64,000 bases of DNA, from NCBI RefSeq assembly GCF_019879105.1, contig NZ_CP082249.1:186001-250000 (forward strand), read 5' to 3'. The notes below the pieces were generated by a model, which had not been told where the DNA came from, searched no databases, and saw nothing but the letters and a program-made list of their open reading frames with translations. Every line of letters begins with the position of its first letter. Position 1 is the first letter of the stretch. The translations under genes and the position numbers were made by a program. This document shows, piece by piece, positions 33,813 through 42,650 of the stretch. Source of the stretch: Natrinema sp. SYSU A 869. GTDB lineage: Archaea; Halobacteriota; Halobacteria; Halobacteriales; Natrialbaceae.

Positions 33813-36068
<2,256 letters not shown>

Positions 36069-36162
36069 TGGTATGATCGTGTGTCTCCGGCGGACCGACA
36101 AAAGTGTACGGCTGCGCTCGGTCATCTGCACCAATCGAAACGTTCGTCCGATGGAAACCCGA

Positions 36163-36291
36163 TTAGTCCGCGGCGTGACGCGGAACGTGGCCACAGTCGA
36201 GACACTGCCACGATCGCTCTTCGAAGGTGAGCGCGCCCTCGCAATCGGGACATCGATACGGCTGTACGACTAGCTGCTGGTGGGCCGTCAT
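36163..36291 (-). CDS. 42-residue protein with two CxxC zinc knuckles
   Basis: ATG at 36291 to TAA at 36163-36165 encodes a small protein with YRCPDCEGALTF and WQCLDCGHVPRH: two CxxC pairs, a likely zinc ribbon. It is upstream of maeB on the same strand with its own codon bias intact. Small zinc-knuckle proteins of this type are common in haloarchaea; function unknown. Confidence 0.7.
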   Translation of the reverse strand: MTAHQQLVVQPYRCPDCEGALTFEERSWQCLDCGHVPRHAAD

Positions 36292-36938: not shown

Positions 36939-37565
36939 ATGACAGACGACTCGAGTGGTGGGCGACGAACGAAGGTCGAACGAGTGATGGACCGGTACGG
37001 CCTCGAGGACTGGGGAGAGCGTCTCGAGGCCGAGTGGATCGGTGACGGGACGGAACGAACGAGTCTACGCGATCTCGCGACCGAGTTCAATCAGGCCGTA
37101 CTCAGCGCGGCTGTGCGCGACGCGGGCTCGTCCGTCCTCGAGACGGACATCGACTCGCTCTATCGAACACTAACGGACGACGACGTGTCGCGATCCGATG
37201 CGGTTCGGAAACGGCGCGAACTCGAGCGTTCGGGTGTCGATATCGACGACGTTCAATCTGACTTTGTTACCCACCAGACGATTTATACGTATCTCACGAA
37301 CGTCCGCGACGCCTCTCTTCCGGAGGAAGACCCCGAGGACCGAATCGAACGAAAGAAAGAAACCGTCCAGCGCCTTGCCGGCCGCACGCAAGTCATCACG
37401 GAATCCACGCTCGAGGAACTCGGTAATGCCGGCGAGATCACGGATCGGGAGTACGAGGTGTTCGTCGACGTTCGAACGATCTGTGGGAACTGCGGTGCCG
37501 ACTACCCGATCGCTGACCTGCTCGATCAGGGCGGCTGTGACTGTGACGGCGCTGACGCCGCGTGA
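36939..37565 (+). CDS. rdfA: Rod-determining factor RdfA
   Basis: The 208-residue protein matches haloarchaeal RdfA: an N-terminal helical part (KVERVMDRYGLEDWGERLEAEWIGDGTERTSLRDLATEFNQAVLSAAVRDAG), a middle with IYTYLTNVRDASLPEE, and a C-terminal zinc-type CGNCGADYPIADLLDQGGCDC. RdfA is needed for rod cell shape in Haloferax. The start at 36939 (MTDDSSGGRRTKVERVMDRYGLEDW) is preferred to 36813, whose extra residues look non-coding. An SMC-like gene follows after 63 bases, a recurrent haloarchaeal pairing. Confidence 0.85.
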   Translation: MTDDSSGGRRTKVERVMDRYGLEDWGERLEAEWIGDGTERTSLRDLATEFNQAVLSAAVRDAGSSVLETDIDSLYRTLTDDDVSRSDAVRKRRELERSGVDIDDVQSDFVTHQTIYTYLTNVRDASLPEEDPEDRIERKKETVQRLAGRTQVITESTLEELGNAGEITDREYEVFVDVRTICGNCGADYPIADLLDQGGCDCDGADAA

Positions 37566-37628
37566 GCCACCCGCCGAAAAGCGGCCGTAACCAAATAGCA
37601 TTTAGTTCAGCGGCGAGAAGAGGATATC

Positions 37629-39584
37629 GTGTCATCTCCAGAGTCAGTCACCTCGTCGATCACCGTTACGGCGGAGAACATCGGCGGGATAGACAGTACT
37701 GAGGTAATGCTCCAGCCCGGCATGAACGTCCTGACTGGCCGGAACGCGACGAACCGAACGTCGTTCCTCCAGACGATCATGGCGGCGCTTGGTAGTCGAC
37801 GATCATCACTGAAAGGCGACGCGGACGCCGGTCACGTCGAACTGGCGTTCGACGACGAGCAGTACACGCGATATCTCGAGCGACGCAACGGCGAGGTCGT
37901 CTTCGACGGCGACCCATACCTCGACGATCCGGAGCTCGCGGATCTGTTCGCCTTCCTGCTTGAGTCCAACGAGGCACGTCGCACCGTCAGACGGGGCGAC
38001 GATCTCCGCGAACTCATCATGCAACCGATCGATACCGACGAGATCGAAGCGGAGATCAGCCAATTCGAGGCTGAAAAGCGCGAACTCGACGATCGGCTCG
38101 AGGAACTCGCCCAGCTCGATAGCGAACTCCCCAACCTCGAAGAGGACCGCGTCGCACTCGAGAACGAGATCGAGACCACCACCGAACGGATCGACGAGCT
38201 CGAAGCCGAACTCGATGCGTTCGATCTCGACGTCGAGGCGAGTCGCGAGCGAAAGGAAGAGATCGAGTCGGCGTTCGCCGACCTCCAGGACGCACGGACC
38301 GAACTCGAGTCCATCGAGTACGATCTCGAGACCGAACGAGAGAGTCACGACGAACTCGAACGGGAACGCGACGAACTCGAGGCGGAACTCGAGACATTCG
38401 ACGACGAGCAGGAGTCACCGGACCGACTCGAGGGGCGCGTACAGGAGCTTCGCAACCGGAAGCGGTCGCTCGACACGACCGTCAGCGAACTCCAGAGCGT
38501 GATCCGATTCAACGAGGAGCGACTCGCGGACGACGGCCTCGACCTCGATCTCGAGGAATCGGTCGAGTCGGACGAGACGGACGACGGCGATATCACCGAA
38601 CAGCTACTCGCGGACTCGGATGACGTCGTCTGCTGGACATGTGGCTCTCAGGTCGACCGCGATCGGATCGAATCGACGCTCGACCGATTGCGCTCGCTCC
38701 GCCAGCGAAAGCTCTCCGAGCGGAGCGACCTGCAAGAGCAGATCGACGAGTTCTCCGACCGACAGAAGGAGCTTCGGAAGCGACGCCGGAAACGCGGGGA
38801 GGTCGAAACGCGACTCGAGGCGATCGAGGACGAACTCGAGCAGCGATCCCAGCGCATCGAGGAACTCGAGGCGGATCTCGAGGACCAGCAAGAGCGGGTT
38901 GACGAGCTCGAATCGGACGCTGAGACGTTCGAAAACGCGGAGTACGGTGAGGTAATCGAGACCCACCGCGAACTGAATCGGCTCGAACTCGAACTCGAGG
39001 ACCTCAAGGAGGAACGCGACGAGGTCGAGGATCGAATCGAGGAGATCGAAGCAAAGATCGACGAGCGCAGCGACCTCGAGGACCGCCGCGAGACGGTCGA
39101 GGACGAGTTGACCGATCTCAGAACGCGCGTCGATCGGATCGAAGCGAACGCCGTCGACGCGTTCAACGAGCACATGGAGTCGATCCTCTCGATTCTGGAG
39201 TATCGAAACATCGATCGCATCTGGATCGAACGCCGCGAGAAGACGGTCCGGGAGGGGCGACGGAAGGTCACGCGGACCGCGTTCGATCTCCACATCGTCC
39301 GGACGACCGAGGACGGCCGGACCTATGAGGACACCGTCGATCACCTCTCGGAGAGCGAACGCGAGGTCACGGGGCTCGTCTTCGCGCTGGCCGGGTATCT
39401 GGTCCACGACGTCCACGAGATCGTGCCGTTCATGCTCTTGGACTCGCTCGAGGCGATCGATTCGAACCGGATCGCCGACCTCGTCGAGTACTTCGAGGAG
39501 TACGTCGACTGTCTCGTCGTCGCCTTGCTTCGCGAGGACGCCGAGGCGCTATCGGAGTCGTATACGTACGTCGAGGAGATCTAG
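37629..39584 (+). CDS. Archaea-specific SMC-related protein with Rad50-like zinc hook
   Basis: The 651-residue protein starts with GTG. The N-terminal ATPase part has the P-loop-like TGRNATNRTSFLQTIMAALG, where the canonical GK[ST] Lys is absent. Two long Glu/Arg-rich coiled coils (about residues 145-290 and 355-520) flank CWTCGSQVDRDRIE, a CxxC zinc hook. The C-terminal part has SESEREVTGLVFALAG in place of the ABC signature and the Walker B-like VPFMLLDSLEAID. This layout is typical of the SMC-related partner of RdfA; it probably bridges DNA or acts as a scaffold. Confidence 0.87.
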   Translation: MSSPESVTSSITVTAENIGGIDSTEVMLQPGMNVLTGRNATNRTSFLQTIMAALGSRRSSLKGDADAGHVELAFDDEQYTRYLERRNGEVVFDGDPYLDDPELADLFAFLLESNEARRTVRRGDDLRELIMQPIDTDEIEAEISQFEAEKRELDDRLEELAQLDSELPNLEEDRVALENEIETTTERIDELEAELDAFDLDVEASRERKEEIESAFADLQDARTELESIEYDLETERESHDELERERDELEAELETFDDEQESPDRLEGRVQELRNRKRSLDTTVSELQSVIRFNEERLADDGLDLDLEESVESDETDDGDITEQLLADSDDVVCWTCGSQVDRDRIESTLDRLRSLRQRKLSERSDLQEQIDEFSDRQKELRKRRRKRGEVETRLEAIEDELEQRSQRIEELEADLEDQQERVDELESDAETFENAEYGEVIETHRELNRLELELEDLKEERDEVEDRIEEIEAKIDERSDLEDRRETVEDELTDLRTRVDRIEANAVDAFNEHMESILSILEYRNIDRIWIERREKTVREGRRKVTRTAFDLHIVRTTEDGRTYEDTVDHLSESEREVTGLVFALAGYLVHDVHEIVPFMLLDSLEAIDSNRIADLVEYFEEYVDCLVVALLREDAEALSESYTYVEEI

Positions 39585-40369
39585 CTGTCAACGATTTCCG
39601 GTTCGTTCCGACTCGGTCTCCATCCGTGATCCTCGTGCACAGCGTCGATCGGCAGAGTTTGCTCATCGGAGTAATCGAACCAGACGATACGGTATGGGCA
39701 TAGACACAATAGAGATATAGTATAGAAATCCATGTATTCCGATGTAGAATGTTCTGTAGCCCCTCTTGCGCTCACAGACACCACTGAAAGCCGAATAGAT
39801 CGCCTTGGACAACGGAATATGGGGCAGCACCTTTCGACGAACCGTCTCGGTCAGGACGGTCGATCGGACGAGAAACCGAGGAACTCGAGATCGTCGAATC
39901 GATCCAGAGTCCGCTGTACTATCGCGTATGCGGTACGTAACGGTAGCAGGATCGAATACTGTCTGAAGAAGTGAGTCGAATCACCCTCGATTCCGTGTCT
40001 CGAACATACCACCTAGAGATAATAGAACTGAAACTGATAGACCGCCAGTAACCGTTACGTCCATCTCTCGAGCGGATCGATCGAATCGATCTCCGCTCTC
40101 ACTCGATCGCAACGGTAAGACGAGTACTGGATATCGGACTGGGTTGAGCGACTCGAGTTGCTTGGGGTCGCCGTCGACCAACGACGTACACGCCGTTGCA
40201 TGTGCAGTTGTAAGCTACAATATTGCCGCTATCGTGTTCCCCGTATGAACTGTTCCACGATACCACGGTCGCGGCCACTCGAAATGACGCGGCCACGGAC
40301 CGTTGAGTTGGCGGACCGTCAGTGGTCAATCGGTCGGTCGTTCGAACGACGCGTTCCGTCGGGGAACCC
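39585..40369. other. Intergenic region, no gene recognised
   Basis: About 785 bases between the SMC-like gene and the SRPBCC gene. Short frames lack coding bias. No repeats or clear promoters were recognised except modest AT-rich DNA near 39700-39730 and 40010-40030. Confidence 0.45.
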
Positions 40370-41154
40370 ATGAGCGATCGTTCGTCGGAGACGATACCGA
40401 TCGAGACCCAGGGCCATGCGAGCGATCAAACTCGTACCGAGTCGGAGCGCTCGAGCGGACGCGGCAGACGGCTGGCCACCACGGCCGTCGGGGGGATACT
40501 CATCGTCGCCGGTCTCAGACGGCGATCGATCGGCGGTGCGGCGATGGCGCTCGGCGGTGGGTGGCTCATCGCTCGCGGCGTCAGCGGGCGTCGCCGTCCG
40601 CTTCGAGACCGCAGTATGGGAGTCTCTGGAGAACTGGACGAATCCGTGGCTGAGGATGCTGGCGGCCCGGTGACGGTCGAACGATCCATCACGGTCGGCG
40701 CGCCCGCGGACGAACTCGCGGAGTACTGGCGCGACCCCGAGCGACTGACGCGGATTATGGGTCCCGTCGCCGAGGTGACCGGTGCCGGCGAGGACCGCCA
40801 CCACTGGGACGTCCAGACGCCCCGCGGTCCCAACCTGACCTGGGAGACGGAGATAACGGACGCCGAGTCCGAACCGGACCTGCACTGGAAGACGCGCGAG
40901 GGGGCGATGATCGCCAACGAAGGCAGCGTGCGCTTCCAGCCGGCACCAGGGGAACGGGGGACGACGGTGACGCTTCGGTGGCAGTTCGACCCGCCGGGGG
41001 CACCATCGGTACCGCGCTGCTCCAGCGACTGGGGATCGTTCCCGAAACGATCGCCGAGAAGGCACTCCATCGGTTCAAGAGCCTCGCCGAGACCGGCGAA
41101 ATTCCGACCTTAGAGCACAATCCATCCGCGCGGGGTAGCGGCGACCTGCTTTAG
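40370..41154 (+). CDS. Membrane-anchored SRPBCC (cyclase/dehydrase-type) protein, frameshifted
   Basis: The N-terminal part has two short hydrophobic stretches (LATTAVGGILIVAGL, GAAMALGGGWLIARGV), followed by a START-like SRPBCC domain (VTVERSITVGAPADELAEYWRDPERLTRIMGPVAEVTGAGEDRHHWDV, LTWETEITDAE, RGTTVTLRWQFDPPG). The frame breaks in the five-G run 40996-41000. One extra G continues with GTIGTALLQRLGIVPETIAEKALHRFKSLAETGEIPTLEHNP, giving 261 residues. Such proteins bind hydrophobic ligands; substrate unknown. Confidence 0.82.
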
Positions 41155-41180: not shown

Positions 41181-42650
41181 TCAATCACCAGGCGCGGATT
41201 CGGGTCGATAGCCGCGACTGATGACCTTCCAGTGGCCGGCAGCGAACCGATAGTACGTGACGACGGCGGGAACGAACGTCTCGAGGATCAGCGCCGCGTA
41301 GAGCGCGCCGATTCCCAGCGGCATGATGGCCTCGAGGGGCCCCGCGGGAATCGAAACGGCCCCGAGAGCGGCGACGGGGAGCGCGAACACGTAGAGTCCG
41401 AGTACCTGGCCGTAGAACGGCCAGCGGGTGTCACCGCTCGCACGGAGCGGGCCGGTCGCGCCGCCACTAATGCCGCGGAAGACGACGCTCACGCAGGCGA
41501 CGACGATGAAGGTGGTTACCAGCGGCAGGATCGACGGATCGTCGACGAAGAGCCGCCCGACCTGTTCGGCGAAGAGAAGGACGATGGTCGCGCTGAATAG
41601 ATACACGGCGGTCCCGAACCAGAGCACTTCGTAGCCGTACGTGTCGGCGTCACTCTCATCGCCGGTTCCGAGTTCCTGACCCACGAGACTGCTCGAGGCC
41701 AGCGAGAAGCCCCAGCCCGGCGTGTCCATCAGATCCCGGACGCGGCGTGCGACGACGTAGGCGGCCACCACGTTCGGTCCGAACAGCGCGACGATGGCAA
41801 GCATCGGGAACTGCGCGGCCCGCCGAGCGACGTTCGTAAACACCAGCGGCGCGCCGATGTCGATCACGTTCCGGACGTCCTCGAGGGTCGTGTACGGCCG
41901 CGAGAGGTCGATTGTCACAGGGAACTCCCCGATCACGGGGAGCCGGCCGACGGTAAACCCGGTGACGAACGCCGCCAGGACGAGGACGTTCGCCAGTACC
42001 GTCCCGATCGCAGCGCCGACGACGCCCAACTCGAGGACGAACAGCAGGACGGCGTTAACGGCGACGTTGGCGACTGCGCCGCCGGCGCGGAGCATCATGG
42101 GCGTCCACGCGTCGTCGGCACCGACGAGCGTCCGGCTGGCGATCAGGTTCACGCCGGCAAAGGGTACGCCGAGCGCGAGGATTCGGAGGTAGTCCGCACC
42201 GTACGCAGTCGACGCCGCGTCGTTCCCGACGAGTCTGATCAGTTGTTCGGGAACCGTCCAGTAGAGGACCGCGAGGGGAATGGTAATCGCGACGACGATG
42301 AGCGCGCTGGTCGTTACCGCCAGCGACAGCTTTTCGGTCGCCTGCGCGCCGTAGCGCTGCGAGACGAGACTGATCGTCGCGCCGGCGACCCCGCCACCGA
42401 TCGCGAACGCGATCGACCAGAACGGGGTCGCAAAGCCGACGCCAGCGATCGCTGCCGGACCCAGCGCGATCCCGACCATGGCCACGTCCGCCGCGGACTT
42501 CGACATCCGGGCGATGCCGGTGACGATCCGCGGCCAGGCGAGATCGGTGGTCCGCTCGACGCGCTGAGAGTCGACGATCCCGACCCGCGCGAGCAGGGAG
42601 CCGATCGACAGCAGGAGCCAACGGAATGGATTCGGCACTCGAGAAGCCAC
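41181..42650 (-). CDS. MATE-family efflux transporter
   Basis: The 489-residue protein has twelve hydrophobic segments in two halves. MATE landmarks are GPAAIAGVGFATPFWSIAFAIGGGVAGATISLVSQRYGAQ in the first half and GWGFSLASSSLVGQELGTGD in the second. Family members exchange Na+ or H+ for drugs or other organic cations. Convergent with the SRPBCC gene, 26 bases between stops. Confidence 0.9.
   Translation of the reverse strand: MASRVPNPFRWLLLSIGSLLARVGIVDSQRVERTTDLAWPRIVTGIARMSKSAADVAMVGIALGPAAIAGVGFATPFWSIAFAIGGGVAGATISLVSQRYGAQATEKLSLAVTTSALIVVAITIPLAVLYWTVPEQLIRLVGNDAASTAYGADYLRILALGVPFAGVNLIASRTLVGADDAWTPMMLRAGGAVANVAVNAVLLFVLELGVVGAAIGTVLANVLVLAAFVTGFTVGRLPVIGEFPVTIDLSRPYTTLEDVRNVIDIGAPLVFTNVARRAAQFPMLAIVALFGPNVVAAYVVARRVRDLMDTPGWGFSLASSSLVGQELGTGDESDADTYGYEVLWFGTAVYLFSATIVLLFAEQVGRLFVDDPSILPLVTTFIVVACVSVVFRGISGGATGPLRASGDTRWPFYGQVLGLYVFALPVAALGAVSIPAGPLEAIMPLGIGALYAALILETFVPAVVTYYRFAAGHWKVISRGYRPESAPGD

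Follow-up and report, generated by a model that had tools for sequence, protein, structure and literature searches.

An RdfA-paired SMC-like protein of Natrinema belongs to a haloarchaeal clade in which both catalytic residues of the ATPase site appear to be lost

What work is left for an SMC-like protein in which the residues that make its head an ATPase have been exchanged? The question is raised by a two-gene locus of Natrinema sp. SYSU A 869, in a window of 64,000 nucleotides (positions 186,001 to 250,000 of contig NZ_CP082249.1, assembly GCF_019879105.1), where a gene of the RdfA (rod-determining factor A) family precedes one for an archaea-specific SMC-related protein (ASRP, also named Sph; Table 1). 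The two genes, their coordinates, and the 63-base gap between them, described in an earlier note made from the sequence alone, are confirmed here. Neither the family nor its pairing with RdfA is new, and the locus is an ordinary example of both; the role of the Haloferax pair in rod shape is already published. In the literature searched, which was available partly as excerpts and did not cover Ruepp 1998, Herrmann and Soppa 2002, or Takemata 2019, we found no description of a degenerate P-loop or a missing catalytic glutamate in Sph or ASRP proteins; ASRPs are instead characterized as having Walker A and B, and candidates without them were dropped (PMC9389158). The apparent catalytic silencing reported here is an inherited, clade-wide trait as judged from aligned residues, and we give roughly even odds to the reading that the protein works together with RdfA as a stably engaged SMC-like clamp or scaffold with little or no ATP hydrolysis.

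The Natrinema ASRP matches the NF045487 profile over its full length (E = 6e-209; 695.5 bits against a curated cut-off of 300; model positions 1–593 of 593). Its AlphaFold2 (AF2) model, with a mean predicted local distance difference test (pLDDT) score of 88, comprises a two-part ABC head, long antiparallel coiled coils, and a hook, and its best structural matches in the PDB are to SMC, Rad50, and RecF heads (VIA Z 19–23), with the Pyrococcus Smc head first (Z 22.7, root-mean-square deviation 4.0, 323 aligned); a PDB sequence search returned no match for either the ASRP or RdfA. Rad50, SMC, and RecF heads carry a GxxGxGK[ST] P-loop, an LSGG signature, and a catalytic glutamate, and in these features the Natrinema protein is unlike them. 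Arg43 occupies the Walker A lysine position, followed by Thr44-Ser45, so that the loop is otherwise kept around a lysine-to-arginine exchange; the absence of the lysine was recorded in the earlier note, as were the coiled coils and the zinc hook CWTCG at residues 335–339, both of which are present. The same note read LLDSLEAID as Walker B-like, which is borne out for the sequence and for Asp605 but not for an intact Walker B, in that Ser606 replaces the catalytic glutamate directly after Asp605, where methanogen relatives read LDELTYLD. Both residues that make an ABC or SMC head an ATPase are, by this alignment, changed. The canonical signature serine, Walker B aspartate, and D-loop aspartate of SMC and Rad50 are present (Ser574, Asp605, and Asp611), and Asn39 and Thr44-Ser45 are also kept. 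The signature region reads HLSESEREVTG at residues 572–582, with Ser574 and Glu577 kept; the note was correct in reading SESEREVTGL in place of LSGG, but this replacement is not informative, because methanogen ASRPs that possess both the lysine and the glutamate carry LSTSE or LSKSE as well. LSESE is therefore no sign of decay, and the degenerate signature is ruled out as a mark of lost activity by the family-wide occurrence of LSxSE.

The substitutions are shared well beyond this genome. For a first alignment 110 proteins were chosen, of which 107 remained after three exact duplicates were dropped; with one frameshifted copy (L003) left uncounted, it contains 88 rows of the clade to which the Natrinema ASRP belongs (clade A), 14 of a second haloarchaeal clade, and 4 of an outgroup, and in trees the Natrinema protein groups with haloarchaeal ASRPs (the Sph clade). 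Within clade A, 83 rows have Thr41/Arg43/Ser606 and five have Ser41/Lys43/Ala606, without mixtures, while Asn39, Ala40, Ser45, Ser574, Glu577, Asp605, Glu608, and Asp611 are invariant in 88/88. Such conservation (83 to 88 of 88) is not the product of chance, because the mean majority fraction across all 651 columns in the same rows is only 0.60. The second clade keeps GK (e.g., SNWQGKSSF), with glycine, arginine, or glutamine at the glutamate position. We also assembled a larger set, from which seven proteins shorter than 590 amino acids were dropped beforehand; its 194 rows (182 distinct) were reduced to 178 by removing two Rad50/SMC-like proteins (L008, L009), one cut sequence (L210), and one frameshifted sequence (L211). 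This set was deliberately enriched for Lys-type copies, and its proportions are therefore not frequencies. Arg43 is found in 128 of the 178 distinct ASRPs, all 128 of which have Ser606; the 50 with Lys43 have at 606 alanine (20), glycine (13), glutamate (7), arginine (3), asparagine (3), serine (2), glutamine (1), or aspartate (1). The ten non-haloarchaeal rows of this set all have the lysine, and seven have Glu606; no haloarchaeal ASRP in it does. The earlier note had proposed aligning the lysine position across orthologs, with an isolated mutation among canonical orthologs as the refuting outcome; the alignments show instead a loss that close relatives share, and an isolated local mutation is ruled out by the clade-wide occurrence of Arg43 and Ser606. 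Among 391 genomes of the class, 333 have a strong match to the ASRP query and at least 20 have the Lys-type P-loop pattern, a lower bound because the pattern requires phenylalanine after the loop.

Table 1. Features of the RdfA–ASRP locus, in positions of the 64,000-nucleotide window
Feature	Position	Strand	Basis
rdfA, RdfA (rod-determining factor A) family, 208 amino acids	36939..37565	+	Pfam PF21811
RdfA CxxC...CxC cluster (Cys182, Cys185, Cys200, Cys202)	37482..37544	+	conservation
Spacer, rdfA stop (37565) to ASRP GTG start (37629), 63 bases	37566..37628	+	sequence
ASRP/Sph, archaea-specific SMC-related protein, 651 amino acids, GTG start	37629..39584	+	NCBIfam NF045487
Degenerate P-loop GRNATNRTS, residues 37–45; Arg43 codon 37755–37757	37737..37763	+	sequence, conservation
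Coiled-coil arms, residues 137–523, hook region mid-way	38037..39197	+	DSSP of AF2 model
Zinc hook CWTCG, residues 335–339	38631..38645	+	both Cys in 88/88 clade A rows
Signature motif LSESE, residues 573–577, signature Ser kept	39345..39359	+	alignment
Walker B/D-loop LLDSLEAID, residues 603–611; Ser606 codon 39444–39446	39435..39461	+	alignment

Loss of catalytic residues might simply accompany the loss of a gene, and three other ASRP copies are broken in this genome. That the Natrinema copy is a dying paralog drifting neutrally is nevertheless extremely improbable: ratios of nonsynonymous to synonymous substitution (dN/dS) against eight relatives are 0.13–0.25 for the ASRP and 0.03–0.18 for RdfA, indicating purifying selection on both genes, and these ratios, together with the invariance of the motifs, refute decay for this copy.

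The history of the site was traced on a quick IQ-TREE phylogeny of 136 rows, thinned from the 178, with the motif columns removed and the root placed on the outgroup. Arg/Ser proteins are basal in clade A and Lys/Ala proteins are nested inside it twice, on starred branches; both nested lineages returned to lysine, both have Ala606, and neither regained the glutamate. Two proteins, L220 (on the second-clade side, on a long branch) and L227, combine the lysine with Ser606, and no ASRP in the 178-protein set combines Arg43 with Glu606. Because of these two observations, the simplest order would be that the glutamate was lost first, that lysine changed to arginine on the clade A stem, and that two returns to lysine followed, each time with alanine replacing Ser606 and serine replacing Thr41. 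Arg43 is encoded by CGN in 120 of 126 codons read, and a lysine codon is two changes away from CGN. Because methanogen relatives keep both lysine and glutamate, and three of them have an adjacent RdfA homolog, we read the change as a silencing that took place long ago, under selection, in an ATPase already linked to RdfA. Two outgroup ASRPs (L126:1944-3920 and L127:1944-3932) keep the lysine and have asparagine in place of the catalytic glutamate, apparently a separate loss outside the haloarchaea. Five of the 20 Lys/Ala copies (L079, L083, L139, L140, L141) are without RdfA in the fetched flanks, and all five fall on the same side of a single Lys/Ala clade; the return to lysine may accompany a loosened RdfA link in that clade.

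The association with RdfA, which the earlier note had taken as a partnership and which is published for rdfA-sph3 of Haloferax volcanii (PMC10869688), is real. Among 59 genomes of the class, at the thresholds used, the same 50 hold both families and the same nine hold neither; RdfA lies within 1 kb of 78 of 87 ASRP places and ASRP within 1 kb of 79 of 110 RdfA places, compared with published synteny counts of 42/50 and 42/54 (PMC10869688). Where both genes share a strand, RdfA precedes the ASRP in 44 cases and follows it in 15; 11 further pairs are convergent and eight divergent. Because gene orientation varies in this way among relatives, the 63-base spacing, although real, is by itself weak evidence for the joint expression that the earlier note drew from it. 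The two families have also diverged in step: a Mantel test on 95 of the 156 RdfA-bearing rows (loci numbered below 130) gave r = 0.94, against a highest value of 0.18 in 500 permutations, and the RdfAs adjoining second-clade ASRPs form one clade. The Natrinema RdfA itself matches PF21811 (E = 1e-75; 254.3 bits against a gathering cut-off of 27), and its AF2 model (pLDDT 92) shows an all-helical domain with a CxxC/CxC cluster at the C-terminal end, in which Cys182, Cys185, and Cys200 are each at least 90% conserved over 68 aligned rows; the cluster is probably a zinc ribbon. Its fold has no convincing match in the PDB (none in Foldseek at E ≤0.001, none in VIA at Z ≥5), including none to a winged-helix partner of the kleisin or kite type, which it may nonetheless be.

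Beyond the haloarchaea, an RdfA homolog directly adjoins the ASRP in three of ten loci: on a plasmid of Methanohalobium evestigatum (L120; 35 bits, above the Pfam cut-off of 27), on a plasmid of Methanomethylovorans hollandica (L121; 26 bits, just below it), and in L123 (22 bits, below it). The Methanohalobium and Methanomethylovorans pairs thus resemble the Natrinema pair in arrangement, and their ASRPs differ from it in having a lysine P-loop (NASGKTS) and a glutamate after Walker B. The Methanohalobium homolog is already annotated as RdfA in the public record; no discussion of it was found in the literature searched, so far as that was available. All three loci (L120:4594-5112, L121:837-1358, L123:606-1130) have a third gene of about 175 amino acids after RdfA, two of the three matching the winged-helix family HTH_45. 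RdfA homologs above the Pfam cut-off also occur in two other archaeal genomes (G232 and G240; L131:1529-2113 and L132:4276-4968), each beside a similar gene of about 130 amino acids on the opposite strand; no ASRP match was found near them in the fetched stretches. Six non-haloarchaeal ASRPs without RdfA (L122, L124, L125, L126, L127, L129) lie near an AAA (PF00004) ATPase gene, mostly with a small protein without a Pfam family in between, a second conserved ASRP neighborhood.

The cellular role of such a pair is best documented for the Sph proteins. Sph1–Sph4 of Halobacterium salinarum and Haloferax volcanii share with the Natrinema protein the NF045487 match, the zinc hook, size, and an RdfA neighbor. 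Three loci of one genus (L074, L200, L215) have the order RdfA–ASRP–HalOD1, as in rdfA-sph3-ddfA of Hfx. volcanii, and all three have the same Arg/Ser site, so the Sph3 lineage would carry the silenced site; we infer that the genus is Haloferax, because its loci L199 and L216 are 76–82% identical to the Haloferax marinum paralog L063. Deletion of sph3 in Hfx. volcanii abolishes rods, and the published evidence on role covers Sph3 (PMC10869688); paralogs differ, with loss of Sph2 leading to rods and loss of Sph3 to no rods (PMC11276520). Two passages of PMC13286277 state that Sph3 promotes plate shape, contrary to the primary result of PMC10869688. Unlike the Haloferax locus, the Natrinema pair had no HalOD1 (DdfA-like) gene among the seven neighboring open reading frames (ORFs) scanned, in a scan that did not take in every ORF of every frame. 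A role in rod shape for the Natrinema copy is only a guess, because the protein is equidistant from the Haloferax paralogs, no HalOD1 neighbor was found, and the paralogs act on shape in opposite ways and are alike in that their loss impairs gene conversion. Efficient gene conversion in Hfx. volcanii requires all four Sph proteins (PMC11276520), and ClsN (coalescin), another ASRP with an NF045487 match above cut-off in Sulfolobus acidocaldarius, organizes chromosome compartments in Sulfolobus (PMC9389158, PMC9764264); the protein could accordingly be a chromosome-organizing SMC with gene-conversion or nucleoid roles, and its effect on shape indirect. We consider this quite unlikely, since the Arg/Ser site is without the residues for an ATP-driven cycle and the shape phenotypes in Hfx. 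volcanii are specific and opposite between paralogs (PMC11276520). ClsN belongs to another clade and has another role than the Natrinema ASRP (PMC9389158). Arcadin-4 is an SMC-like archaeal protein tied to a cytoskeleton (PMC9389158), of a separate family near Rad50, to which the Natrinema ASRP has only a weak match (22 bits).

How, then, might a head of this kind work? Loss of the lysine and glutamate with the remaining site kept fits a site in which nucleotide is bound, or the heads are kept joined, but no turnover takes place. The ancestor would have possessed a complete SMC-type ATPase site, with the P-loop lysine and the glutamate after Walker B, and would already have been adjacent to RdfA. 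By the time the haloarchaeal proteins arose, the catalytic glutamate would have been lost, after which the main clade would have fixed Lys-to-Arg together with serine at the glutamate position, strong selection keeping the rest of the site (the P-loop asparagine, Thr/Ser, the Walker B aspartate, the signature serine, and the D-loop aspartate). The two heads, joined distally by the zinc hook, would engage stably, probably over un- or very slowly hydrolyzed nucleotide, and RdfA, presumably in physical contact with its partner, rather than ATP turnover, would determine when this clamp or scaffold assembles for its work on cell shape, the genome, or both. RdfA is thus proposed to gate its SMC-like partner. 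The degenerate, non-hydrolyzing site of NBD1 in CFTR, an asymmetric ABC protein, offers an analogy only: serine stands there for the catalytic glutamate with the rest kept, and, unlike in the Natrinema ASRP, the P-loop lysine is kept at that site and one partner site is normal.

Several observations weigh against the clamp or scaffold. Other P-loop ATPases usually lose binding or activity when arginine replaces this lysine, and nucleotide binding may therefore be lost. The coupling of Arg43 with Ser606 is striking but statistically unproven, a lead only, because the tree offers just three independent Lys/Arg contrasts (sign test, p = 0.25). Species history is uncontrolled in the Mantel correlation. 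The identity of the Natrinema ASRP to the Sph3-type protein (48%) is matched by that to another Haloferax paralog (49%; range 47–50%). Finally, Glu608, present in 88/88 clade A rows and replaced by threonine in the RdfA-linked methanogens and by glycine or serine in the second clade, might be a relocated acid. Such a relocation is central to the alternative that the site is still an ATPase of altered chemistry, with Arg43 serving for the lysine and Glu608 or another residue for the catalytic glutamate. We regard this as unlikely: Glu608 occurs in every one of the 148 rows with Arg/Ser or Lys/Ala and is absent from the RdfA-linked methanogens, the whole site is strongly conserved, and two lineages went back to lysine as if the loop still handled nucleotide, but those revertants have no glutamate at 606, and in known ABC heads the residue three after the Walker B aspartate lies away from the gamma-phosphate. 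Alternatively, with lysine and catalytic glutamate both gone and divergence matched to RdfA, nucleotide binding might have been lost and the conserved loop might now serve as a contact surface for protein, DNA, or membrane, e.g., for RdfA; this too has a low probability in our view, as residues for nucleotide, magnesium, and cross-dimer contacts are kept (Asn39, Thr/Ser44, Ser45, Asp605, Ser574, Asp611) and the lysine has returned twice. The clamp or scaffold reading can be extended to the whole clade: the main haloarchaeal Sph clade would be a natural "ATP-locked" SMC, in which the glutamate was lost in the haloarchaeal stem and lysine then changed to arginine in step with serine, turning an RdfA-associated ATP-driven machine, still found in methanogens, into a statically engaged clamp or filament former that RdfA gates and that serves cell shape and the maintenance of genome copies. 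This extension is tentative, and we place it somewhat below even odds.

The seven neighboring ORFs scanned are a malic enzyme/phosphotransacetylase gene (33813–36194), a polyketide-cyclase-like gene (40322–41113), a MatE transporter gene (41181–42650), and four small ORFs without a family; no Mre11- or ScpA-like neighbor was found among the ORFs scanned. Elsewhere in the genome there is a second intact RdfA–ASRP pair (C1:76599-79268, L002), an RdfA without ASRP (C3:1783068-1783640), and the three ASRP copies broken by frameshifts or into fragments, possibly through sequencing errors (L003, C2:72533-77230; L004/L007, C1:754139-758901; L005/L006, C2:737601-741782), two of which still adjoin an RdfA ORF; in the ASRP copy at C2:74033 the first part, which is detached (L179), carries a P-loop of the Lys type. 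Matches occur in 134 of 72,556 plasmid records, the ten most frequent genera being all haloarchaeal; a phage-borne module was rejected on zero matches in 50,697 phage records. Anti-phage defense was likewise rejected: PADLOC matched the ASRP only weakly, to Lamassu LmuB and similar SMC-type proteins and largely over the coiled coil, and gave no match for RdfA.

SMC machines are defined by their ATP-driven cycles, and the clade described here would be a branch without both catalytic residues in which the rest of the site is under selection. It includes proteins with proven shape functions and has complete-site relatives with the same partner gene, and it may therefore provide a natural experiment that separates head engagement from hydrolysis. 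Hfx. volcanii, in which knockouts already show clear phenotypes, allows a direct test, and the RdfA–ASRP pair reaches beyond the haloarchaea.

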